A DNA stretch of 64,000 bases from Janibacter cremeus (GTDB taxonomy: Bacteria > Actinomycetota > Actinomycetes > Actinomycetales > Dermatophilaceae), in assembly GCF_029395675.1 (NCBI RefSeq), contig NZ_CP115184.1, positions 558,001 to 622,000 of the forward strand, in the 5' to 3' direction. Positions 8,794 through 62,539 of this stretch are shown in pieces; position 1 is the first letter of the stretch, and each line of letters starts with the position of its first letter. The position numbers were made by a program, and so were the translations under genes. Under the pieces are notes generated by a model. The model worked only from the letters and a program-made list of their open reading frames with translations, searched no databases and was not told the origin of the DNA.

Positions 8794-9383
8794 CCCTCCT
8801 CCGACAGGGTGTCCTCGATGATGCCGACGAGGGTGCTCTCGGTCACCGGGCCGAGGACGACGGCGGCGATGCGCCCCTCACGATCCAGGACCGCGGTCGA
8901 GGGCTGGGTGGTCATCTTGCCCTGCATGTCGATCGCGGTCGAGCCGCTCTCGTCGTAGATCGAGGGCCAAACGAAGCCCCACGTCTCCGCCTGCGCCAGC
9001 CCGGTCGCCACCGAGGACTCGCGGTAATCGATGCCGACAAAGGCGACGTCCTGCCCCTTTGTCGCCTCATAGGTGTCCACCAGGTGCGGCGCCTCCTTGG
9101 CGCACGGACCGCACCAGCTGGCCCAGAGGTTGACCACGACCACCTCGCCGCGGTGCTCGGCCGAGTCCCACGTCGTGTCGCGGATGGTCTCCCCTGCGAG
9201 CTCGACCGGCTCGTCGCGCTCGTCCGCGGGGATGAGGTGCAGGGTGCCGTCACCGGAGCGGTACCCGGCGTCCTGGGCCGCATCCGCGGTGTCGGAGGAG
9301 GACGAGCAGCCGGAAACCGCCATCACTGCGAGGGTGCTCGCGGCGGCGACGACGGTACGGCGGGTGGGACGGTGGGCAGTCAT
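8790..9383 (-). CDS. ResA/TlpA-like thioredoxin lipoprotein
   Basis: This 197-residue lipoprotein has the thioredoxin active site WCGPC (Cys91, Cys94) inside VVNLWASWCGPC, and a TTQPSTAVLD cis-proline loop. The N terminus is a lipoprotein signal with twin arginines (TRRTVVAAAS) and lipobox AVSGC. The frame continues upstream to 9482, but the ATG at 9383 places the signal peptide correctly. It is the first gene of the cytochrome c maturation operon and should reduce the CxxCH cysteines before haem attachment. Confidence 0.9.
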   Translation of the reverse strand: MTAHRPTRRTVVAAASTLAVMAVSGCSSSSDTADAAQDAGYRSGDGTLHLIPADERDEPVELAGETIRDTTWDSAEHRGEVVVVNLWASWCGPCAKEAPHLVDTYEATKGQDVAFVGIDYRESSVATGLAQAETWGFVWPSIYDESGSTAIDMQGKMTTQPSTAVLDREGRIAAVVLGPVTESTLVGIIEDTLSEEG

Positions 9384-9618
9384 CGAGGGGCAGGCTCCAA
9401 GGTCATCGAACTGCGCGCGTACAGGCGTGCAGCCGAAGGTGCGGTCGGGCGAAGGGCGGTCGACCAAGAATCGGGTTGCCAACCAGAGAGGAATCGATCA
9501 GGCTCACCTTCTGCTGACTCATGGCACCGATCCTCTCAGGCTAGACCCGGAGCCCAAGGTCAGGGGTGTCAGTACTTGGGTCCTAGCATTGCATCAGGCT
9601 TTCGGCGAAATCGTTCTA

Positions 9619-51236: not shown

Positions 51237-53222
51237 ATGGAACGCACGCTTCTCTGGCGACCGTCCCCCGAACGGATCGCCGACTCGCAGATCCGCCGCT
51301 ACCAGGCCTGGCTCGCACAGACGGCCGGCGTCGAGACCGGCGACTACGCCGACCTACACGCGTGGAGCGTGGCTCACGTCGACGAGTTCTGGCAGTCGAT
51401 CTGGGACTTCTTCGGAGTGGTCGGTGACCGCGGGGACGGACCGGTGCGTTGCGGCGAGGACATTCAAAGCACACGGTGGTTCCCCGGCGCGCAGGTCAAC
51501 TTCGCGCAGAACCTGCTGCGCTGGTCACAGGAGCGGCCGGATGAGGAAGCAATCGTCGGGCTGCACGAGACCGGGCCGCGTGAGTCGGTGACCTGGGCCG
51601 AGCTGACCGGTCGGGTTGGCGCCCTCGCTGCTCACCTGCGGGCGGTCGGAGTGCAGCCCGGCGATCGGGTGTGCGCGGTCCTGCCCAGCTCGCCGGAGAC
51701 GGTGGTCGCCATGCTCGCCACTGCGACCGTGGGTGCCACCTGGTCGGTGGTCAACACCGACTTCGGGGTGCAGGGGATCAGCGACCGCTTCAAGCAGATC
51801 GAGCCGCGGGTGCTGTTGACGACCGACTCCATCGAGTTCGGCGGGCAGCACAGAGATCAACTGGCGCTGCTTCCCGCGATCCTGCAGGCGCTGCCGAGCG
51901 TGGAGCACCACGTGCTGATCGACACACGTGATGGGGTGGCGCCGGATAGCCTCCGGGTGCCGAGCACACGCATATCGGAGATTCTCGCGGAGCCAATCGA
52001 GCCGGAGTTCGAGCCGGTCGAGTTCTCCCACCCCCTGTGGGTGCTCTACTCGTCGGGCACGACCGGCCGGCCGAAGGGGATCGTCCACTCCCACGGCGGG
52101 ATCGTTCTCACAAGCCTCAAGGACAACGCGCTCCAGTACGACCTCACTCCCGGATCGCGCTGCTACTACGCAGTGTCGACTACGTGGGTGGTGTGGAACC
52201 TGCTCGTACAGTCGATGTTCGTCGGCGTCACGATCATCACCTACGACGGCGCACCGACCCACGGGTCGCCGGCACGACAGTTGCAGATCTGCGCTGAGGA
52301 GGACGTCGAGTTCTTCGGGACAGGCGCGGCGATCCTGTCGGCGATCGAGCGGGCAGGTATCTCGCCGAAGGAGTTGTGGAATTTCGACAGCCTCCGCTCG
52401 ATCCTTTCGACCGGGTCGCCCCTGCCGGACTCGACCTGGCGATGGTTCTACGAGCACGTTGCCGGGGACGTGCGGCTGGGTTCGGACTCCGGGGGCACGG
52501 AAATCGCCTCCGGCATCCTCGGATCAAACCCGCTGGATTCCGTGTACCTCGGTGAGCTGATGGCACCGTATTTGGGCGTCGATGCGCGGACCGTCGATAC
52601 GAAGGGGGAGAGCGTCACCGGCGAGGTCGGTGAGTTGGTGATGACCTTGGCGCTGCCATCGATGCCGATCGCGTTCTGGAACGACCCGGGCGGGAGGCGA
52701 TACAAGGAAGCGTACTTCGACGCGTTCGACGGGCTGTGGCGGCAGGGCGACTGGGCGACACGCAACGCGGAGGGCGGCTGGATGATCCACGGACGCTCAG
52801 ACGCGACGATCAACCGCGGCGGCATCCGGATGGGGTCAGCCGACATCACCAGCATCGTGAACACCGTTGTGGGAGTGGCTGACTCGATGGTCCTCGGCGC
52901 AGAGCTCGACGGCGGCGAGTACTACATGCCGCTTTTCGTCGTCCCGGAGGCGGGCGTCGACGTGGACGCGGCCCTCCGAGATCGCATTGTTGCGACGATC
53001 CGTGAACAAGTCTCCCCACGCTACGTCCCCGACGAGATCCTTGCCGCGCCGTCAATTCCGCGCACGCGTACCGGAAAGATCCTCGAGGTTCCGATCAAGC
53101 GGGTCTTCCAAGGTAGCGACCCAGACGCGGTCAACCGCACAGCGGCCGCGGACGTCGCTTCGCTCGAGTGGTACATCGAGCAGGCGACGCGCTTTGCGCA
53201 GAACAGACGGAGTCTCGTCTGA
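51237..53222 (+). CDS. Acetoacetate--CoA ligase
   Basis: This 661-residue adenylate-forming enzyme makes acetoacetyl-CoA. The AACS-type start (LLWRPSPERIADSQIRRYQA), the motif TRWFPGAQVNFAQNLL, the P-loop YSSGTTGRPKGIVHSHGG and the catalytic lysine region PRTRTGKILEVPIKRV support this call. It follows the SDR by 42 bases. Acetoacetate from the fumarylacetoacetase step or from leucine breakdown would be its substrate. Base composition begins to fall in its 3' part. Confidence 0.92.
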   Translation: MERTLLWRPSPERIADSQIRRYQAWLAQTAGVETGDYADLHAWSVAHVDEFWQSIWDFFGVVGDRGDGPVRCGEDIQSTRWFPGAQVNFAQNLLRWSQERPDEEAIVGLHETGPRESVTWAELTGRVGALAAHLRAVGVQPGDRVCAVLPSSPETVVAMLATATVGATWSVVNTDFGVQGISDRFKQIEPRVLLTTDSIEFGGQHRDQLALLPAILQALPSVEHHVLIDTRDGVAPDSLRVPSTRISEILAEPIEPEFEPVEFSHPLWVLYSSGTTGRPKGIVHSHGGIVLTSLKDNALQYDLTPGSRCYYAVSTTWVVWNLLVQSMFVGVTIITYDGAPTHGSPARQLQICAEEDVEFFGTGAAILSAIERAGISPKELWNFDSLRSILSTGSPLPDSTWRWFYEHVAGDVRLGSDSGGTEIASGILGSNPLDSVYLGELMAPYLGVDARTVDTKGESVTGEVGELVMTLALPSMPIAFWNDPGGRRYKEAYFDAFDGLWRQGDWATRNAEGGWMIHGRSDATINRGGIRMGSADITSIVNTVVGVADSMVLGAELDGGEYYMPLFVVPEAGVDVDAALRDRIVATIREQVSPRYVPDEILAAPSIPRTRTGKILEVPIKRVFQGSDPDAVNRTAAADVASLEWYIEQATRFAQNRRSLV

Positions 53223-53317
53223 TCGGCCATCTTCGTACTGACGACAACCGAGCACGAAATCACACACAACCCCGTTCGGCATCCACGCCGGGCAACGACG
53301 AATTGGAATAGATCACT

Positions 53318-54427
53318 ATGAAGAAGCCCCTGATGCTTACCGCCCTCACCCTCGCACTAGGGATGACCACCGCCGCATGCGGCAGCGGTGGTGGTGCCGG
53401 TGGCGACGACACACAGACGCTGCGCTTTGCCACCGGATTCACTTCACAGAATGGCTGGTGGGTCGGGACCTACAAGCCGTGGATGGATCGTGTGGAAGAG
53501 CTGAGCGAGGGTGCTGTCGAATTCGAAGCGTTTAATGGCGGCGAGTTGGTCGCGGCTGGTGACGAGCTCGAGGCACTCAATCAAGGCATCGCTGACATCG
53601 GTAGTGTCGCGCCGCCGTACCTGCCCGACCAGTTCACCGCTGGCGAGGTCACAATGCTGCCCCTTGCCGAATCGGATGTGCGGATCGCCTCTAAGGCATA
53701 CAAGGCTCTTCTGGAGAGCGATGAGAAAATCATCGACGGGAAGACGTACTACGAGTCGCAGTTCGAGGAAAACGGGCTCAAGGCGTTCCCCGTGCCCACG
53801 ACTGCTGAGTACACGATTTCAACTACGGGGAAGGAATTCAATTCCGTATCGGCGGTGAAGGGTCTCAATATCCGCGCATCATCGCGAACACATGAGATCT
53901 TGGCTGAATCGATGGGGATCAACCCCGTGGCCATCCCAAATGCAGAGGCGTACGACGCCCTCAACAGAGGCACGCTTGATGGGAACTTCTCGAGCGTCGC
54001 TGATTGGTCGGGTTACGGCTTCCAGGACCTCTTCAAGTACACCCTGAAGGGGATCAATTTTGGGCACTTCAACGGCACCATGGCAATGACGGAGGAGACC
54101 TGGAACGGTCTTGACCCCGAAGTTCAGGAAGCCATGGAGCAGGCTAATGAGGAGCTGTACCTGGATCCCGGGGCGCAAGAGTGGGTGGATCGCGCGGACA
54201 AGATGGTCAAGGTCAATCGGGAGTCCGGCGGAGAGTTTGTTGAATTCGACACGCTGAATCCGCAGGTGCAGGAGCTCTTCCTCGATGGCGTGGATAAGAC
54301 TTGGAACAACTACATCGCGCAGCTCGACGGCAAGGGACTGGATGGCGAGGCCGTGGTGAGCCATTGGCGCGACCTGCTCGTTGAAGCCGGTGGCGAGGTG
54401 CCGGAGAGCGCCAAGGATCTCAACTGA
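53318..54427 (+). CDS. TRAP transporter solute-binding lipoprotein (DctP family)
   Basis: This 369-residue extracytoplasmic binding protein has a lipobox (TTAAC) and the DctP fold, LRFATGFTSQNGWWVGTYKP through GLNIRASSRTHEILAESMG. The latter holds the conserved arginine that binds a carboxylate. Position after acetoacetyl-CoA ligase suggests a small carboxylic acid such as acetoacetate. The gene is clearly less GC-rich than its neighbours, with A/T third bases frequent. Confidence 0.9.
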   Translation: MKKPLMLTALTLALGMTTAACGSGGGAGGDDTQTLRFATGFTSQNGWWVGTYKPWMDRVEELSEGAVEFEAFNGGELVAAGDELEALNQGIADIGSVAPPYLPDQFTAGEVTMLPLAESDVRIASKAYKALLESDEKIIDGKTYYESQFEENGLKAFPVPTTAEYTISTTGKEFNSVSAVKGLNIRASSRTHEILAESMGINPVAIPNAEAYDALNRGTLDGNFSSVADWSGYGFQDLFKYTLKGINFGHFNGTMAMTEETWNGLDPEVQEAMEQANEELYLDPGAQEWVDRADKMVKVNRESGGEFVEFDTLNPQVQELFLDGVDKTWNNYIAQLDGKGLDGEAVVSHWRDLLVEAGGEVPESAKDLN

Positions 54428-54463
54428 TGGTGTATCGAAACCCTACCGTTAAGGGAGGCGCCG

Positions 54464-55777
54464 GTGTCTAGCACTCTAGTTATCGCGGTCATCGTCGTTC
54501 TGTTCGCCGTGCTCCTCTTGGCCGGCGGCTATATCCATACTGTTCTGTTGGTGGCAGGTATCGGTGGCGTATTGCTTCTGTCAGGCACCGACATCTTGGG
54601 CGGTCTGTTGGGGCCACTACCCTTCTCGCGGACGGCCTCGTACACGCTCACCACCATTCCACTCTTCGTCTTGATGGCGCAGTTTGTCCTACAGGCAGAC
54701 ATAGTCAAGGACCTCTTCTATGTGGTCAACCGGGTCTCGAAAAATCGCAACGGAGTGCTCGGGTCTTTGACCCTAGTGGCAGGGGCGATGCTCGGCGCCG
54801 TCTCAGGCTCAGGTGTGGCGGCTGCCGCATCTCTCGGTCAGGTGGCAGTGCCGGAGTTGGAGAAGAGTGGCTTCAAGCGAGCTCACGCTGGTGCGGTGGC
54901 GGCGGCCGCCGGCTCATTATCGGGAATCGTTCCGCCAAGCATCATTTTGATACTTTTTGGTGTTGCGACCGAGACGCCCATCGGCGATCTCTTCATCGGG
55001 GCGGTCATCCCCGCAGCCGCGGTGACCCTGGTGTTCATCTTGGTCATGATGTTCTACCTTCGACGGGACCATGCGAAGGCTGAGCTGGCGAACTGGCCAG
55101 CGGCGCCGGTCGAGTCAATCGGCGTGCCCCGCCTGATCGTGTCGATGAGCGTCATGGGAGTCATCGTTTTCGTTGTCCTGGGAGGCATCTATGCCGGGAT
55201 GGTGACCGCGACAGAGGCTGGCGCCATCGGAGCCTTTTCGGCACTTTTGGCAGCCATAGTGCTCGGTCAGTTCAGCCTCAGGTTCCTCAGGGACAGTTTT
55301 CTTGAGACCGTGAAGATTACCAGTATGGTGATGCTGATCCTTATCGGGGCACAAATTTTCGGTAAGTTCGTCACCCTGTCGCTGCTGCCTCGTCGTCTGA
55401 TCGATCTGCTAGGGCCGCTCGTCGACAACCCCGTAGCGATGATCGCGATCCTCTCAGCGGTCTTCTTCATCCTCTTCATGTTCATCGAGGGCGCCGCTGT
55501 GATCTTGATGACCATCCCAGTCATATTGCCCATCATCAACGCGATGAATATGGACCTTCTGTGGTTCGGTGTCTTCGTTGCCATGATTTGTACCGTTGGA
55601 CTGATCACTCCTCCGGTCGGCCTGAGTGTGTATGCCGTGTCAGGGGCCAGCGGCGTGTCTTCAGGCGGAATATTCAAGTACGCAACAGGTTTTGCGGTCC
55701 TCGCGGTGTTGATCGTGGCAGCGATGATGACGATCTTCCCGCAAATGGCCACATGGCTGCCCTCGGTCGCCGCTTGA
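54464..55777 (+). CDS. TRAP transporter large permease (DctM)
   Basis: This 437-residue 12-helix subunit transports the solute using a Na+ or H+ gradient. GAMLGAVSGSGVAAAASLG and GIVPPSIILILFGVATETPI match DctM signatures. It precedes the small subunit gene, reversing the usual P-Q-M order. A GTG start follows a good GGGAGG site. Composition is AT-richer than the flanks. Confidence 0.92.
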   Translation: MSSTLVIAVIVVLFAVLLLAGGYIHTVLLVAGIGGVLLLSGTDILGGLLGPLPFSRTASYTLTTIPLFVLMAQFVLQADIVKDLFYVVNRVSKNRNGVLGSLTLVAGAMLGAVSGSGVAAAASLGQVAVPELEKSGFKRAHAGAVAAAAGSLSGIVPPSIILILFGVATETPIGDLFIGAVIPAAAVTLVFILVMMFYLRRDHAKAELANWPAAPVESIGVPRLIVSMSVMGVIVFVVLGGIYAGMVTATEAGAIGAFSALLAAIVLGQFSLRFLRDSFLETVKITSMVMLILIGAQIFGKFVTLSLLPRRLIDLLGPLVDNPVAMIAILSAVFFILFMFIEGAAVILMTIPVILPIINAMNMDLLWFGVFVAMICTVGLITPPVGLSVYAVSGASGVSSGGIFKYATGFAVLAVLIVAAMMTIFPQMATWLPSVAA

Positions 55778-55824
55778 ATGAGGATGAGTAATTTCCATTG
55801 GGCTTTTGAAGGACGTGTGAATCA

Positions 55825-56358
55825 ATGCTTGTGAATGCTTACCGTTGGTGGAACTCAATCAAGATGGCCGGGGGTGTGTTCAGCGGCTTCGTCATTCTGT
55901 TGCTGATGTTGTTCATTGTCGCCGATGTCATCATGAGAAACGTCTTCCATAACTCAATTCCGGGTGGCTTCGAGATCGCCCAGAACTACTTCCTTCCCCT
56001 GTCTGTTTTCCTAGCCTTGCCATATGTGTATGGCACGGGCACGTTGCCCAAGATGGATTTGCTGATGCACCGGTTTCCGGTAGGCGTGCAGAGCGCAGTG
56101 ATCTATCTTCTTCTTGGTCTCGAGGTGCTTGTTTTCTTGGCGCTTACCTTCTTTAGCTTTGGGTATGCTGTTGATTCGTTGGACCGCGGCCGCGCCTTTC
56201 CGGCTGGTGGTTTGTTGCTTCCCATTTGGCCGGTGTTGTTCTTGGTGCCCGTGAGTTTCCTGATGATGTTCATCGAGGCAGTTTTCACTATATCCAAGAA
56301 TGTGGCTCGAGGTTCTGTTACTTATTCACTTGGGACTGACGCGCCAGAAGGGATCTGA
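55825..56358 (+). CDS. TRAP transporter small permease (DctQ)
   Basis: This 177-residue four-helix subunit is recognised by FHNSIPGGFEIAQNYFLPLS and the hydrophobic helices around ALPYVYGTGTLPKMD. It is the partner of DctM and completes the TRAP system. Its gene is the last and most AT-rich part of the island-like segment. A return to high GC occurs near 56360. Confidence 0.9.
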   Translation: MLVNAYRWWNSIKMAGGVFSGFVILLLMLFIVADVIMRNVFHNSIPGGFEIAQNYFLPLSVFLALPYVYGTGTLPKMDLLMHRFPVGVQSAVIYLLLGLEVLVFLALTFFSFGYAVDSLDRGRAFPAGGLLLPIWPVLFLVPVSFLMMFIEAVFTISKNVARGSVTYSLGTDAPEGI

Positions 56359-56497: not shown

Positions 56498-57505
56498 GTG
56501 GTGGACGACTTCCTCATCGCCCGCAACCCCGGGCCGGACAGCCGCTTGCCGTACCTGGTGCGCATCCCGCTCGGGGAGGGGGTCGTGCTCAAGACGAAGG
56601 ACGTGTGGCCGCGCACAGCCAAGTTCTACTGCCACCGCACCCACGAGTGGCCCGAGGACGCGGAGATCATCGAGCGCGTCCCCGCCCGTTCTTGCACTTC
56701 ACGCGGAGCAGCGATCGACCTCCTCCTCGACCGGCGGCGGGAGAGCCGCTCCCAGTTCGTCATCACCCGCATCCGCGGGGGTCGGCAGGCGATCTTCTGG
56801 CAGACCGCGCGCACGACCAAGCAGGCCCGGCCCAACGTCGGTCTGCCGACCGCGCGGGCGCAGGGGGTGGAGGACCTGCAGATCCTCGTGGACAGCCACG
56901 AGCGGTACCCGTGGCGGTTCACCCACCAGCAGGCCGTGACGAAGCGTTGGGGGTTGCCCTGCGGCGACTACGCCGTCACCGACGGAGAGCAGGTCGCCGC
57001 CGCCGTCGAGCGCAAGAGCCTGGCCGACCTCAGCTCGAGCCTCACCAGCGGCAAGCTCACGTACGTCCTGGTCGAGCTGAATGACCTGCCGCACGCGGCG
57101 GTCGTCGTCGAGGAGCGGTACTCGCAGGTCTTCGCCCTCGAGCACGTGCGTCCGGCCGTCGTCGCCGAGGCGATCGCGGAGAGCCAGGGGCGGTTCTCGA
57201 CCGTGCCGATCATCTTCGCCGAGAACCGACAGCTCGCACAGGAGTGGACCTACCGCTTCCTCGCGGCTGCACGGGAGGAGCTGCGCATGGGTGCCCCCAC
57301 CGCGGAGGCCATCTCGACCATGGCCGCGGCCAACCCGGCACCTCCGGCCGGACCGACGCCGCGCGAGATCCGGGCCTGGACGAGGGAGCACGGGTGGACG
57401 GTCTTCGACCGTGGACGCATCCCCGCCGAGGTGCGGCGAGCGTACGAGCAGGGTAGACCCGTCGAGCGATCTCGCCCTGCTGCGCCGTCGTCGGCTCGAT
57501 CGTGA
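56498..57505 (+). CDS. ERCC4-family nuclease fused to an Lsr2-type DNA-binding tail
   Basis: This 335-residue protein holds an ERCC4/XPF-type nuclease core: Asp132 and Glu135-Arg136 (LVDSHERYPWRF), Gly156-Asp157-Tyr158, and Glu171-Arg172-Lys173-Ser with Asp177. This matches the catalytic pattern GDXnERKX3D. The tail from about residue 287 (TPREIRAWTREHGWTVFDRG, RIPAEV) matches the AT-groove-binding C-domain of Lsr2, with RGR at 305-307. The N-terminal 120 residues are unassigned. A structure-specific nuclease targeted to AT-rich, probably foreign, DNA is inferred. The GTG start is preceded by TGGAG. Confidence 0.82.
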   Translation: MVDDFLIARNPGPDSRLPYLVRIPLGEGVVLKTKDVWPRTAKFYCHRTHEWPEDAEIIERVPARSCTSRGAAIDLLLDRRRESRSQFVITRIRGGRQAIFWQTARTTKQARPNVGLPTARAQGVEDLQILVDSHERYPWRFTHQQAVTKRWGLPCGDYAVTDGEQVAAAVERKSLADLSSSLTSGKLTYVLVELNDLPHAAVVVEERYSQVFALEHVRPAVVAEAIAESQGRFSTVPIIFAENRQLAQEWTYRFLAAAREELRMGAPTAEAISTMAAANPAPPAGPTPREIRAWTREHGWTVFDRGRIPAEVRRAYEQGRPVERSRPAAPSSARS

Positions 57506-57850: not shown

Positions 57851-59242
57851 TCACGTGGGCGGCGGTGCGGCGGGCAGGCAGACGCGGAAGACCGTGTCGC
57901 CCGGCTCGGACTCGATCTCGATGGTGCCGCCATGCCGCTCGACGACGATCCGCTGGGCGATGTCCAGCCCGAGACCGGTGCCCTGCCCGACCGGCTTGGT
58001 GCTGAAGAAGGCCTCGAAGGCCCGCGCGGCGACCTCCGGCGGCATGCCGGGTCCCGAGTCGCGGATCTCGACGACGACACCATCATCGGCGCCGGGGCGG
58101 GTGGTGATGCGCAACGTCCCGGTCCCGCCCATGGCGTCGAGCGCATTGCCGATGAGGTTGGTCCACACCTGGTTGAGTTCGCCGGCGTAACCCTCGATGG
58201 TCGGCACGTCGGCGTAGTCCTTGACGACCTCGACCGTGCCCTCGCGCAGCTGGTGCCCCAGCACCAGCAGTGTGCTCTCGATGCCCTCGGTGACGCTGAG
58301 CTGTTGCAGCGGGGCGCGGTCCAGCTGCGAGTAGGAGCGCACCGCCGCGACCAGCTCCGAGATCCGTCGCGTCGACTCGGCGATCTCCGCCCGGAGCACC
58401 GTGGACTGCAGGCTCGCCACGATCCAGTCCAGACCGGCCTGCAGCGACCGCGGGTCGACCACCCCCGCGAGGCGCTCGCACCACTGCTCGTCGGCGTTGG
58501 CCGAGGCCAGCACCGGCGCGGCCACCCAGCTGCGGTCGACCCCGCTCGCGTCGAGACGCTCGGCGAGTGCGTCCTCGATGTCGACGCGGTCCACGTATGC
58601 CGGGGCGGGCCGTGAGGCCAGGTCGCGGCGCAGGTCGTCCAGCGCGGTGAACTGCTCGGCGGTGATGCCCTGCGCGGCCAGCTCACTGAGAGCGGTGAAG
58701 AGGGTGTCGTCAGCCGTTCCCAGCGCGGCCGTGGCCCGCGTGGCCGCGGCCGACGGGTTGTTGATCTCGTGAGCGAGCCCGGCCGCGAGCTTGCCGAGGG
58801 CCGCCAACGAGTCGCGTTGGCGGGCCGTCGACTCGACGTACAGGGCCATGCCGTAGACGCCCTTGATGAGGTGGCTGCCGAAGGGGAACCACCGCGCGGT
58901 CAGGTCGCGCAAGTCGCTCGCCGGCACCTTGAGCATGCGTCCGGCGACGAGACCTCGGGCGCCGGCGAGGTAGCGGCCGGTCTGCACCCAGGCCCGGAAC
59001 CCGCCGGCCCACCGGCCGGGGGCGTCCATGCGTCCGACCACCATGTCCTCTCGTTCGCTGCGCCTGACCAGCTCGACGACCCCGTCGATGAGCACCCACC
59101 AGTGGTCGGCGTGACCCCCTTCGTCCCAGATCCGCTCGTCGGGCGCGAAGGCGACCTCCTCGCCGGCGGCCAGGAGCTCCTCGAGCTGTCCGGTGGTCAG
59201 CCCGGCGAAGAGCTCGATCGGTTGCAGGTCGGCGATGTCCAC
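57851..59242 (-). CDS. Sensor histidine kinase with cyclic-nucleotide-binding-like domain
   Basis: This 463-residue soluble kinase begins with a CNMP-type beta-roll (LFAGLTTGQLEELLAAGEEV, IWDEGGHADHWWVLIDGVVE, about residues 8-120). A helical H-box (AAGLAHEINNPSAAATRATA) follows, then an HATPase domain (NLIGNALDAMGGTGTL, DSGPGMP, GTGLGLDIA). There are no membrane helices, so it senses a cytosolic ligand. Its GTG start lies inside the 3' end of the receiver-reductase gene, overlapping by 46 bases, so the two are translationally linked partners. Confidence 0.87.
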   Translation of the reverse strand: MDIADLQPIELFAGLTTGQLEELLAAGEEVAFAPDERIWDEGGHADHWWVLIDGVVELVRRSEREDMVVGRMDAPGRWAGGFRAWVQTGRYLAGARGLVAGRMLKVPASDLRDLTARWFPFGSHLIKGVYGMALYVESTARQRDSLAALGKLAAGLAHEINNPSAAATRATAALGTADDTLFTALSELAAQGITAEQFTALDDLRRDLASRPAPAYVDRVDIEDALAERLDASGVDRSWVAAPVLASANADEQWCERLAGVVDPRSLQAGLDWIVASLQSTVLRAEIAESTRRISELVAAVRSYSQLDRAPLQQLSVTEGIESTLLVLGHQLREGTVEVVKDYADVPTIEGYAGELNQVWTNLIGNALDAMGGTGTLRITTRPGADDGVVVEIRDSGPGMPPEVAARAFEAFFSTKPVGQGTGLGLDIAQRIVVERHGGTIEIESEPGDTVFRVCLPAAPPPT

Positions 59243-60936
59243 GAGGCTCCGCAGGTGGTGGCGAGGTAGCGGTGGACGAAGTGCACCGCCATGGCGCCCT
59301 CGCCGACGGCGGAGGCGACTCGTTTCATCGAGTCCAGCCGCACGTCGCCGGCGGCGAAGACGCCCGGCAGGCTCGTCTCGAGGGCGAACGGTCCGCGCGG
59401 CAGCCCCCACGCTCCGTCGGCGGCGCGGAGCATCTCCGGGCCCGTGAGCACGAAGCCCTTGTCATCACGCACGATCGCCTCGCCCAGCCAGTCGGTGCGG
59501 GGGACCGCGCCGATGAAGACGAAGAGCCAGCTCGTCGCGACCTCCTCGGTGGCGCCGGAGTCGCGGTCGCGCAGGGTGAGGGACTGCAGGTGGCCGTCGC
59601 CGCTGCCGGCGATCGCCTCGCTGTGGTGACGGACGGCGATGTTGTCGGCAGCGAGGATGCGGTCGACGAGGTAGCTCGACATCCCGTCGGCGACGTCGGC
59701 ACCGCGAACGAGGAGCGTGACGTGCGAGGCATGCCGGGCGAGGTTCAACGCGGCCTGCCCCGCCGAGTTGGCCGCACCGACGACGTAGATCTCGTCCCCG
59801 GCCACCTGACTGGCCTCGCTCGCCGTTGTCCCGTAGTAGACTCCCCGCCCGGTGAACTCGTCCAGGGTGCTCGCGCCGAGCCGGCGGTAGGAGACGCCGG
59901 TGGTGACGATCACCGACCGGGCCTCGACCTCTGCCTGCCCGGCGCCGTCCGGGCCGTCCGTCGCCGGACCGTCTAGGAGGACGGCGCGCACCGGTCCGCG
60001 CTGCTCGAGCCCGATGACGTCCCGGGCGACCACCATCTCGGCCCCGAAGCGGATGACTTGGGCGACCGCACGCTGGGTGAGGTCGGACCCGCTGAGGCCG
60101 CGGGGGAAGCCGAGGTAGTTCTCGATCGAGGCGCTCTGGCCGGCCTGCCCGCCGGGCGCTTCGCGCTCGACGATCACCGTGCGCAATCCTTCCGAGGCGG
60201 CGTACACCGCCGACGCCAGCCCAGCGGGTCCGCCGCCGACGATGCACACGTCGTAGAGCGTCTGGTCTGCTCGGGTGCGCAGCCCGAGGGCGCCAGCGAG
60301 CTCCATGCTCGAGGGGGAGCACAGGGACGCGCCGTCGGGCACGAGCACCAGCGGCAGCCGGTCGCTCGCCACCCCCGCCGCCTCCAGAAGGCGCGGGCCC
60401 TCCGGCCCCTCCTCGATGTCGATCCACCGGTAGGGCACGTGGTTGCGGGTGAGGAAGGTCTTGGTCGCGTGGCTGCGCTCGGACCACCGGTGGCCCACCA
60501 CCCGGAGCTCGGCGGTGTGGGTGGGGTTGGCGCTGCGCCAGTCGCCGAGCAGGTCGTCGACGATGGGGTAGAGACGCTCGTCCGGCGGGTCCCAGGGTTT
60601 GAGCAGGTAGTAGTCGAGTCCGACCTTGTTGATCGCGCGGATCGCAGCGTCGGTGTCGGCGTAGGCGGTGAGGAGCAGCTGCTTGGCCGTCGGTGCCTGG
60701 AGGTGGGCCCGCTCGAGCATTTCGATGCCGGTCATCTCCGGCATCCGCTGGTCGGCGACGATGAGCGCGACCGCTTGGTCGCGCAGGGCCAGCTTGCCGA
60801 GGACCTCGAGCGCCTCCGCGCCCGAGGTCGTACCCAGCACCCGGTACTCCCTGCCGTACTGCTCGCGCAGGTCGCGGGTGATCGCGGCGGACACCATCGG
60901 GTCGTCGTCGACCGTGAGGATGACTGGTTTGCTCAT
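59197..60936 (-). CDS. Receiver / thioredoxin-like / FAD reductase fusion protein
   Basis: This 579-residue protein has three parts. An N-terminal response-regulator receiver has acidic Asp10-12, phosphoacceptor Asp62 in VADQRMPEMTG, and a conserved Lys in YYLLKPWDPP. A glutaredoxin/thioredoxin-like segment (about 145-235) reads HRWSERSHATK where Cys would be expected. A thioredoxin-reductase-like FAD/NAD(P)H domain starts YDVCIVGGGPAGLASAVYAA. The redox pair CxxC of thioredoxin reductase is replaced (RGVYYGTTASEA), so electrons must go elsewhere. Phosphorylation by the paired kinase may control the flavoenzyme. ATG 60936 is the start; the frame to 61164 is not homologous. Confidence 0.87.
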   Translation of the reverse strand: MSKPVILTVDDDPMVSAAITRDLREQYGREYRVLGTTSGAEALEVLGKLALRDQAVALIVADQRMPEMTGIEMLERAHLQAPTAKQLLLTAYADTDAAIRAINKVGLDYYLLKPWDPPDERLYPIVDDLLGDWRSANPTHTAELRVVGHRWSERSHATKTFLTRNHVPYRWIDIEEGPEGPRLLEAAGVASDRLPLVLVPDGASLCSPSSMELAGALGLRTRADQTLYDVCIVGGGPAGLASAVYAASEGLRTVIVEREAPGGQAGQSASIENYLGFPRGLSGSDLTQRAVAQVIRFGAEMVVARDVIGLEQRGPVRAVLLDGPATDGPDGAGQAEVEARSVIVTTGVSYRRLGASTLDEFTGRGVYYGTTASEASQVAGDEIYVVGAANSAGQAALNLARHASHVTLLVRGADVADGMSSYLVDRILAADNIAVRHHSEAIAGSGDGHLQSLTLRDRDSGATEEVATSWLFVFIGAVPRTDWLGEAIVRDDKGFVLTGPEMLRAADGAWGLPRGPFALETSLPGVFAAGDVRLDSMKRVASAVGEGAMAVHFVHRYLATTCGASWTSPTCNRSSSSPG

Positions 60937-61078: not shown

Positions 61079-62539
61079 TCAAGAGTGCGCCCGCGGACCA
61101 CGGCCACGCTCGGCCAGCTTGCCGAGAAGGTCGTCCTCGGCCTCTGGCCCGGGCCTGACGCCACCGGGGAGGCGGATGAGGAACACCAGGCCCAGCAGCC
61201 ACCAGAGCCCGAAGATGACGTAGGGCTGGATGTCGAGCGCGGCAGGCATGCCGGGTATGTAGAGGGCCAGCAGGCACGCGGTGGCGATCACGGCTGCCAC
61301 GCCGATCGCTGCCCCGCCGCCCGGCGCACGGCCACCGATCCTCAGGGGTCGGTCCATCGTGGGCTCGTGTCGCCGCAGCACGAGGAAGACGACGGACACG
61401 AGCAAGTACGTGATCACGATCGACGGTGAGCTGGAGGCGACGAGCCAGCCCATCATCACCTCTCCGAAGAAGGGCGCGATCGCGCAGACAGTGCCGATGA
61501 AGATCAGGGCATTGCTCGGGGTGCGGTGAGTCGGGTGCAGCTTCGCGAACCACGTCGGCAACATGCCCGACCTGGCCATGGCCCACATCAGCCGGGAAGC
61601 ACCGATGAGGAAGGCGTTCCACGATGTCGTCAACCCCGCGAGCCCGCCGGCGATGACGAGGTTGCTACCGAACCCACCGGCGAGTGCGTCCATCGCATCG
61701 GCGGTCGCGAGGTCGAAGTCCTGCATCTCCGCTGCCGGAAGGGCCGTCGATGTGGTCAGGATGATGACGATGTAGAAGAGCGTGGCCATCGTCACCGAGA
61801 TGAGCACCAGCCGGCCGATCTTGCGCGGAGGGACGTTGATCTCCTCCGCCGACTGCGGGATGACGTCGAAGCCGACGAAGAAGAAGGGCACGACGACCAG
61901 CACGGCCAGCAGCCCGGCGCTGTCGACGAAGAGCGGTTGTGCGTTGCTGACGTCGCCCTCGAAGAAGGTCAGGCCGATCATGGCCAGGGCCATGACGATG
62001 AGAAAGAGGACGACCGAGGTCTGCAGGAGGCTGGCGGACTTGATGCCGCGGATGTTCAGGGCCGTGAGGAGCGCCGCCGTGGCGGTCCCGATGAGCGCCC
62101 ACACCAGGTAGACGTCCGAGTCCGCGACGGTCCACAGCGGTACCGAGTACACCTCGGGCACGATGTAGGCGATGGTCCTCGGGATCGCCACGGCCTCGAA
62201 TGCGGCGACACTGATGTAGCCACCGACGATCCCCCAGGACCCGATGAAGGCCAGTCGCGGACCGAAGCCGCGCAAGAGGTAGTTGTGCTCCCCTCCCGCG
62301 CGCGGCATCGCCGACACCAGCTCCGCGTAGACGAGCCCGACGAGGGCCATGATGGCGCCGCCGATGACGAATCCGAGCGCTGCGCCGAGCGTCCCGGCGT
62401 CGTTGAGCCAGGTGCTCGTCGTCGTGATCCAACCGAAGCCGATCATCGCGCCGAAGCCGATGAAGAAGGTCTCCACGCGCCCCAGGGAGCGCTTCAGCTG
62501 CCCCTCGGCGGGAGCCGGTGGCGTGTTCGTCCGTCCCAT
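61079..62539 (-). CDS. APC-family amino-acid permease
   Basis: This 486-residue, 12-helix amino-acid/polyamine/organocation transporter begins LKRSLGRVETFFIGFGAMIG, and FGWITTTSTWLNDAG is the unwound first helix. It has AELVSAMPRAGGEHNYLLRG and GFDVIPQSAEEINVPPRKIG. Substrate is unknown. It stands alone, upstream of the receiver-reductase gene on the same strand with a 142-base gap. Confidence 0.9.
   Translation of the reverse strand: MGRTNTPPAPAEGQLKRSLGRVETFFIGFGAMIGFGWITTTSTWLNDAGTLGAALGFVIGGAIMALVGLVYAELVSAMPRAGGEHNYLLRGFGPRLAFIGSWGIVGGYISVAAFEAVAIPRTIAYIVPEVYSVPLWTVADSDVYLVWALIGTATAALLTALNIRGIKSASLLQTSVVLFLIVMALAMIGLTFFEGDVSNAQPLFVDSAGLLAVLVVVPFFFVGFDVIPQSAEEINVPPRKIGRLVLISVTMATLFYIVIILTTSTALPAAEMQDFDLATADAMDALAGGFGSNLVIAGGLAGLTTSWNAFLIGASRLMWAMARSGMLPTWFAKLHPTHRTPSNALIFIGTVCAIAPFFGEVMMGWLVASSSPSIVITYLLVSVVFLVLRRHEPTMDRPLRIGGRAPGGGAAIGVAAVIATACLLALYIPGMPAALDIQPYVIFGLWWLLGLVFLIRLPGGVRPGPEAEDDLLGKLAERGRGPRAHS

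Follow-up and report, generated by a model that had tools for sequence, protein, structure and literature searches.

Response regulators with a thioredoxin reductase-like output, the TrxB-output regulators, have been described before. The fusion of a receiver (REC) domain to thioredoxin reductase (TrxR) was reported as a Mycobacterium-like architecture (PMC5847659), regulators of this type were tabulated for Streptomyces coelicolor, where SCO7297 and SCO7298 are listed as a pair (PMC9739842), and one was tabulated for a cyanobacterium (PMC9953108); the published record that we found on such regulators consists of catalogue or expression data. Here we analyze a 64,000-nucleotide stretch of the Janibacter cremeus genome (contig NZ_CP115184.1, positions 558,001 to 622,000; hereafter the window), in which open reading frames and domain searches place a soluble histidine kinase gene (57851..59242, minus strand, GTG start, 463 residues) next to the gene of a response regulator-flavoprotein with receiver, glutaredoxin-like and TrxR-like domains (59197..60936, minus strand, ATG start, 579 residues). 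The first-pass annotation of the window had proposed a kinase and receiver pair with a flavoprotein as its output and a 46-base overlap of the two genes, and we find both minus-strand genes and the overlap (59197..59242) as it described them. It had also offered the pair as the best candidate for an undescribed system, which does not hold, since the architecture is reported and catalogued in the sources above and at least 7,999 clustered relatives of the regulator pass an E value of 0.001 in a protein search. The architecture is already known and common, and the window pair belongs to it. Compared by description, with the SCO proteins unaligned, the window pair shows no difference in kind from the TrxB-output regulators of these sources, sharing with SCO7298/SCO7297 the REC-TrxR-like fusion and the adjacent histidine kinase.

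The receiver of the window protein (residues ~1-135, 60532..60936) matches Pfam Response_reg at 59.8 bits and contains the residue quintet D10, D11, D62, T90 and K113, with the codon of the phospho-acceptor Asp62 at 60751..60753. D10, D11, D62 and K113 are invariant in 59/59 aligned loci, and T90 is present in 58 of the 59. Judged from sequence, with the quintet intact and the receiver fused to a TrxR-like domain, the protein is a TrxB-output response regulator. The glutaredoxin-like domain (residues ~142-218, 60283..60513) aligns with the CPDC-bearing glutaredoxin domain of sensor-less relatives. It has no Pfam match of its own, including to Pfam Glutaredoxin; the region of one relative (L137) aligned to it is Pfam Glutaredoxin at 41.6 bits and carries CPDC, and by this alignment the window domain is homologous to a true glutaredoxin domain. 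A CxxC or CxxS glutaredoxin active site is absent from it, the Cys pair being replaced in WSERSH (residues 151-156). The TrxR-like FAD/NAD(P) module (residues 226-561, 59254..60261) matches Pyr_redox_2 at 99 bits, and conservation among the aligned loci is strong in its FAD motif, NAD(P) motif and GGQA loop. The redox-active CxxC is not present in the NADPH domain of this module, where the former CxxC loop reads VYYGTTASEA (residues 366-375, 59812..59841). The receiver, thioredoxin-like and FAD reductase domains that had been called (Response_reg, glutaredoxin-like and Pyr_redox_2) and the absence of the usual Cys pairs from both redox domains (WSERSH; YYGTTASEA) are confirmed. The protein scores 196.7 bits against TIGR01292 (TrxB) and 145.9 bits against TIGR03140 (AhpF), under the cut-offs of 343.45 and 502.9. 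It has the FAD and NAD(P) fold in common with low-molecular-weight TrxB, but it lacks CxxC, falls below the TrxB cut-off and carries the extra REC and glutaredoxin-like domains. With AhpF it has in common the layout of a redox domain plus a TrxR-like module, but AhpF retains its Cys pairs and is not known to carry a receiver. The four cysteines of the window protein (206, 231, 562 and 571) are not conserved family-wide; Cys231 is found in 116/120 close relatives but in only 9/59 loci. Cys378, a cysteine of some relatives, was considered as a replacement nucleophile and rejected, because residue 378 is Val in the window protein. Two CxxC-bearing relatives of the flavoprotein are encoded elsewhere in the same genome and could be its ordinary reductases.

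A scan of genome contigs (the genome_contigs loci) found relatives in Actinomycetota, Bacteroidota, Chloroflexota, Acidobacteria, Cyanobacteria, Proteobacteria and others, and in one archaeal bin. The scan covers the best 80 of 151 loci, whose tail matches the receiver only, and these receiver-only loci (L063-L066, L068-L080) were excluded. A draw from Actinomycetota, the phylum of the window, gave a match at E 1e-60 in 96/396 genomes, and the kinase and zf-UBP searches of this survey cover 80 of the 96; matches that were split, fragmentary or at a contig edge were left out, as were most of those that began near residue 140. The DNA of 174 rows was read; at least one place is represented by two rows, and 172 distinct sequences went into the tree. 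Two interrupted genes, L056 and L059, are both typed as REC by the tree script, and by the domain script as none and as cNMP, respectively. Both receiver and Pyr_redox domains are present in nearly all of the best 120 relatives listed, and Ornithinimicrobium and Janibacter are the nearest named relatives among the matches listed. Because the closest relative listed is 91% identical over 561 residues, the observation of the flavoprotein is far beyond chance.

The rows fall into four classes. Class A (L137 and L190-L196) is a glutaredoxin-TrxR protein without a detected REC or cNMP domain and without a called kinase, and it keeps CPDC or CGDC plus CATC in 8/8 rows; for L137 the glutaredoxin domain is confirmed by Pfam. 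Class B carries a complete receiver on the module and has a kinase nearby, class C carries a degraded receiver and has no kinase, and class D has a cNMP domain directly in front of the module with no kinase called (L061, L086, L088, L128-L136). Neither Cys pair occurs in any of the 164 sensor-bearing rows (0/151 REC-called, 0/13 cNMP-called), and across these rows the gain of a sensor accompanies the loss of both thiol relays. Class D corresponds to the cNMP thioredoxin-disulfide reductases of the ATII-TrxR type, including that of Cupriavidus metallidurans (L086); the class D members read here share the glutaredoxin-like plus TrxR-like module and, as in the window protein, both CxxC are absent, but a cNMP domain replaces REC and no family kinase is called at their loci. 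On a tree rooted on class A, 10/12 cNMP forms branch first (clade support 0.89), and the REC clade has a support of 0.78. The other two cNMP forms, L088 and L131, group together (support 0.997) and are nested among the REC forms (support of this placement ~0.77). The receiver and the cNMP domain therefore seem to have replaced each other at least one further time, and REC with its kinase and the cNMP-fold domain look like interchangeable inputs to one module.

The state of the receiver is also linked to the kinase. Family kinases were called at >100 bits over >250 profile positions without a requirement for adjacency, using a profile that combines the window kinase with 119 database relatives and 45 genome_contigs kinases and contains no survey kinase. 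The final survey count requires the full quintet and leaves out L189, a duplicate of L112, and L182, which is truncated, giving 89 distinct places of receiver type, 53 with a complete quintet and 36 degraded. Among the complete receivers, 49 have a called family kinase, 3 a contig-edge fragment (L091, L112, L157) and 1 has none (L149), so that a kinase or edge fragment is nearby in 52/53 complete-receiver places versus 0/36 degraded-receiver places. Under a looser criterion (D62, T90 and K113 only), the kinase is present in 49 places and absent in 8, versus 0/34 for degraded receivers. Among the 60 genome_contigs loci, 59 receivers are complete, with 50 called kinases, 2 partial ones (L053, at a contig edge; L036, in pieces inside the contig) and 7 without a kinase, some of these at contig edges; the only degraded receiver (L057) has no kinase. 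In these loci alone the link between receiver state and kinase is not significant (Fisher p 0.30), because just two rows count as degraded, L057 and the interrupted L056. Kinase-bearing receiver loci span genomes of many families, and in the rows compared a complete receiver goes with a kept kinase. The kinase lies ~2.0-2.1 kb from the regulator gene in four Acidobacteria loci of Bryobacter type (L019, L025, L032, L041), with ABC transporter genes between them, of glycine-betaine type by Pfam for the scanned genes of L019 and L025. Two or three tandem family kinases stand beside one REC-TrxR gene in genomes G130, G195, G227, G237, G248 and G327, which suggests several signals converging on one receiver. 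A protein of ~90 residues is encoded beside the regulator gene in L013 (3137-3400), L039 (5658-5936) and L053 (5600-5935), with no Pfam match in the two that were scanned (L013 and L039).

The window kinase has the signature residues of a histidine kinase. The phospho-donor His158 lies in the GLAHEINNP box (codon 58769..58771), and H box His158 and N box Asn366 are each present in 165/165 aligned kinases. The catalytic ATP-binding domain (residues ~310-461, 57860..58315) matches HATPase_c at 91.5 bits. HisKA scores 18.1 bits, under the Pfam cut-off of 26.9, and in the structure model an insertion of four helices (residues ~195-261, 58460..58660), placed between the two helices of the DHp, interrupts this domain. 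The distance from H158 to N366 is 207-214 residues in 162/165 aligned kinases, compared with a spacing of about 105-120 in ordinary histidine kinases. No counterpart of the insertion stood out among the fold-search rows, which were filled by matches to the ATP-binding domain, and for that reason we make no claim of novelty for it.

The sensor domain of the kinase (residues 1-118, 58889..59242) matches Pfam cNMP_binding (PF00027) at 29 bits, above the cut-off of 27.5, so the cyclic-nucleotide-type sensor proposed earlier stands as a fold. It does not make cAMP the leading ligand of this kinase. The canonical phosphate-binding motif of CRP/CNBD domains, GE...[RK][TS]A, also written GE...PR[TS]A, is absent from the window kinase and from L001, L003, L004, L006 and L055. 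The strict motif is present in 17/101 kinases, a pattern under which L037, L038 and L045, which carry GE...PRMA, count as motif-less. A class III cyclase profile matches in the fetched locus of 10/17 motif-bearing kinases versus 4/84 others (Fisher p 7.5e-7, uncorrected for phylogeny or locus length and with weak matches counted), and for matches >200 bits only the counts are 5/17 versus 1/84. The strong cases of kinase plus cyclase are in Devosia, Sphaerobacter, Chloroflexi and one archaeal bin, and the Pfam scan of these cases covers L008 (Devosia) and L047 only. These results suggest that cAMP or cGMP is the ligand in motif-bearing clades, and that the sensor of the window clade has a different ligand or a worn-out site. 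Because the motif is absent here and the sole class III cyclase match in the genome is ~1 Mb distant from the kinase, cAMP was rejected as the lead ligand in the window clade.

The modeled reductase module superposes on L. lactis thioredoxin reductase in the flavin-reducing (FR) form (5mh4) with a root-mean-square deviation of 2.0 over 302 residues, and on the same enzyme in the flavin-oxidizing (FO) form (5mjk) with 7.4 over 299 residues. Foldseek agrees with the flavin-reducing conformation, and AhpF structures top its ranking for the flavoprotein. The FR and FO labels of 5mh4, 5mjk and 5w4c were taken from the entry titles. In the FR pose of TrxR, FAD can be reduced by NAD(P)H with no dithiol involved, by the established mechanism of this enzyme. 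We propose that the window genes form a cognate two-component pair, in which binding of a signal at the cyclic-nucleotide-fold domain would alter autophosphorylation of His158, phosphate would move from the kinase to receiver Asp62, and phosphorylation of Asp62 would alter the passage of electrons from NAD(P)H to FAD in the TrxR-like module. Both Cys relays are gone, and the reduced flavin would therefore bypass the normal route to thioredoxin; in the FR conformation it would react with a non-dithiol acceptor such as O2, a quinone or a partner protein, and the output would be gated NAD(P)H oxidation. The pairing of kinase and receiver is very probable in our view. Phosphotransfer, the direction of control and the acceptor are what we infer beyond it, and the comparative data strengthen the earlier reading that phosphorylation would control redox chemistry. 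For the full proposal, that the flavoprotein performs phosphorylation-gated non-thiol NAD(P)H oxidation, we consider the chances evenly balanced.

Several observations weigh against this proposal, and some of them favor other explanations. The module is predicted to sit in the flavin-reducing conformation, and that placement is a prediction only. In searches of the open-access literature, no assay of phosphotransfer or of enzyme activity for a REC-bearing form appeared among the papers listed. The degraded receivers are concentrated on the tree, with 36/37 in one clade (support 0.98) and L188 separate, and kinase absence together with receiver decay therefore represents about two events, not 36. 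Complete receivers without a kinase in the fetched stretch are found in L149, L027, L043 and L052; in L027 and L043 there is room for a kinase on either side of the regulator gene but none is nearby, and in L149 a related kinase is ~22 kb away, as would be expected if the kinase served another regulator and the receiver were phosphorylated by a different kinase. Such adjacency without partnership is nevertheless highly improbable given the contrast of the survey places, drawn from genomes of many families, and given that kinase and regulator gene are on the same strand in 98/100 REC-called rows for which a family kinase was called. Thiol chemistry is a further concern. ATII-TrxR, a cNMP-TrxR protein from a brine pool, is reported to perform NADPH-driven reduction of DTNB and thioredoxin and also to use NADH (PMC6544261), and a single Cys378 is kept in 72/117 rows with D62, T90 and K113, so that Cys378 of these relatives could still be capable of thiol chemistry. 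The flavoprotein might then be a phospho-controlled disulfide or persulfide reductase that works through other cysteines in sulfane-sulfur or thiol stress, and the reported induction of the SCO7298 transcript by polysulfide (PMC9952706) and by acid shock (PMC2631018) would fit such a role. We regard it as improbable for the window protein, which has Val378 and whose own cysteines are not conserved in the family. ATII-TrxR is known here from the paper and not from its own sequence; its redox centers are given there as Cys206-Cys223 and Cys376-Cys467 (PMC6544261), and the cysteine spacing of the C. metallidurans relative L086, which is not proven identical with the 87% match cited for ATII-TrxR, fits the former pair and not the latter.

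That none of the sensor-bearing rows examined keeps either Cys relay is also what would be expected of an enzyme turned sensor. The flavoprotein could be a sensor or scaffold that gauges the ratio of NAD(P)H to NAD(P)+ by its FAD and signals to a partner or back to the kinase, its sensitivity being set by the receiver. A candidate partner recurs in other genomes: of 93 zf-UBP genes in 80 genomes, 28 are no more than 10 kb from a module, where ~0.6 would be expected if the mean genome size is taken as 4.7 Mb, and zf-UBP genes occur alongside classes B, C and D. In Tsukamurella (L087), a zf-UBP gene (9137-9487) is followed by an S-(hydroxymethyl)mycothiol dehydrogenase gene. The strong conservation of the FAD and NAD(P) motifs and a model pose that would allow NAD(P)H to reduce FAD speak for a working flavoenzyme instead, and we consider a sensor or scaffold role unlikely. 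Despite its strong association elsewhere, zf-UBP was rejected as the partner here, as it has no match in the window genome. Gated non-thiol electron flow, the reading we prefer, may extend beyond this locus. We tentatively suggest, with more doubt than confidence, that the family comprises widespread signaling flavoproteins, in which a glutaredoxin-TrxR fusion gave up both thiol relays and took on a regulatory front end. Phosphorylation (by REC with its kinase) and direct binding (by the cNMP-fold domain) would be interchangeable inputs, and the output would be gated NAD(P)H-flavin electron flow to a non-thiol acceptor, possibly a zf-UBP protein in genomes that have one nearby.

The surroundings of the pair are as follows. 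The 46-base overlap depends on a C-terminal extension of the flavoprotein, whose last 18 residues are missing in the 91%-identical relative P0004 (561 residues) and whose residues 564-579 have a predicted local distance difference test score (pLDDT) <50 in the structure model. An amino-acid permease gene on the same strand (61079-62539, minus strand) ends 142 bases upstream of the regulator gene, and the two may be in one transcript; a scan for promoters and terminators gave no match. On the plus strand, 56498-57505 encodes an ERCC4-type nuclease domain fused to an Lsr2 DNA-binding domain, and 51237-56358 contains an acyl-CoA-synthetase-like gene and then the TRAP transporter genes DctP, DctM and DctQ.

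The noteworthy pattern is that sensor gain goes with loss of the thiol relays and that a complete receiver goes with retention of the kinase. The overlapping pair, the loci with a degraded receiver and no kinase, and the relatives that keep their cysteines offer natural controls for work at the bench. Many family proteins are annotated at source as "thioredoxin reductase (NADPH)", and the rows examined are without the residues that define TrxR; if the proposal is true, many of these annotations would need correction. It would also mean a two-component pathway with redox power, not transcription, as its output, and if phosphorylation gates the flavin chemistry, two-component signaling would set cellular redox flux directly.

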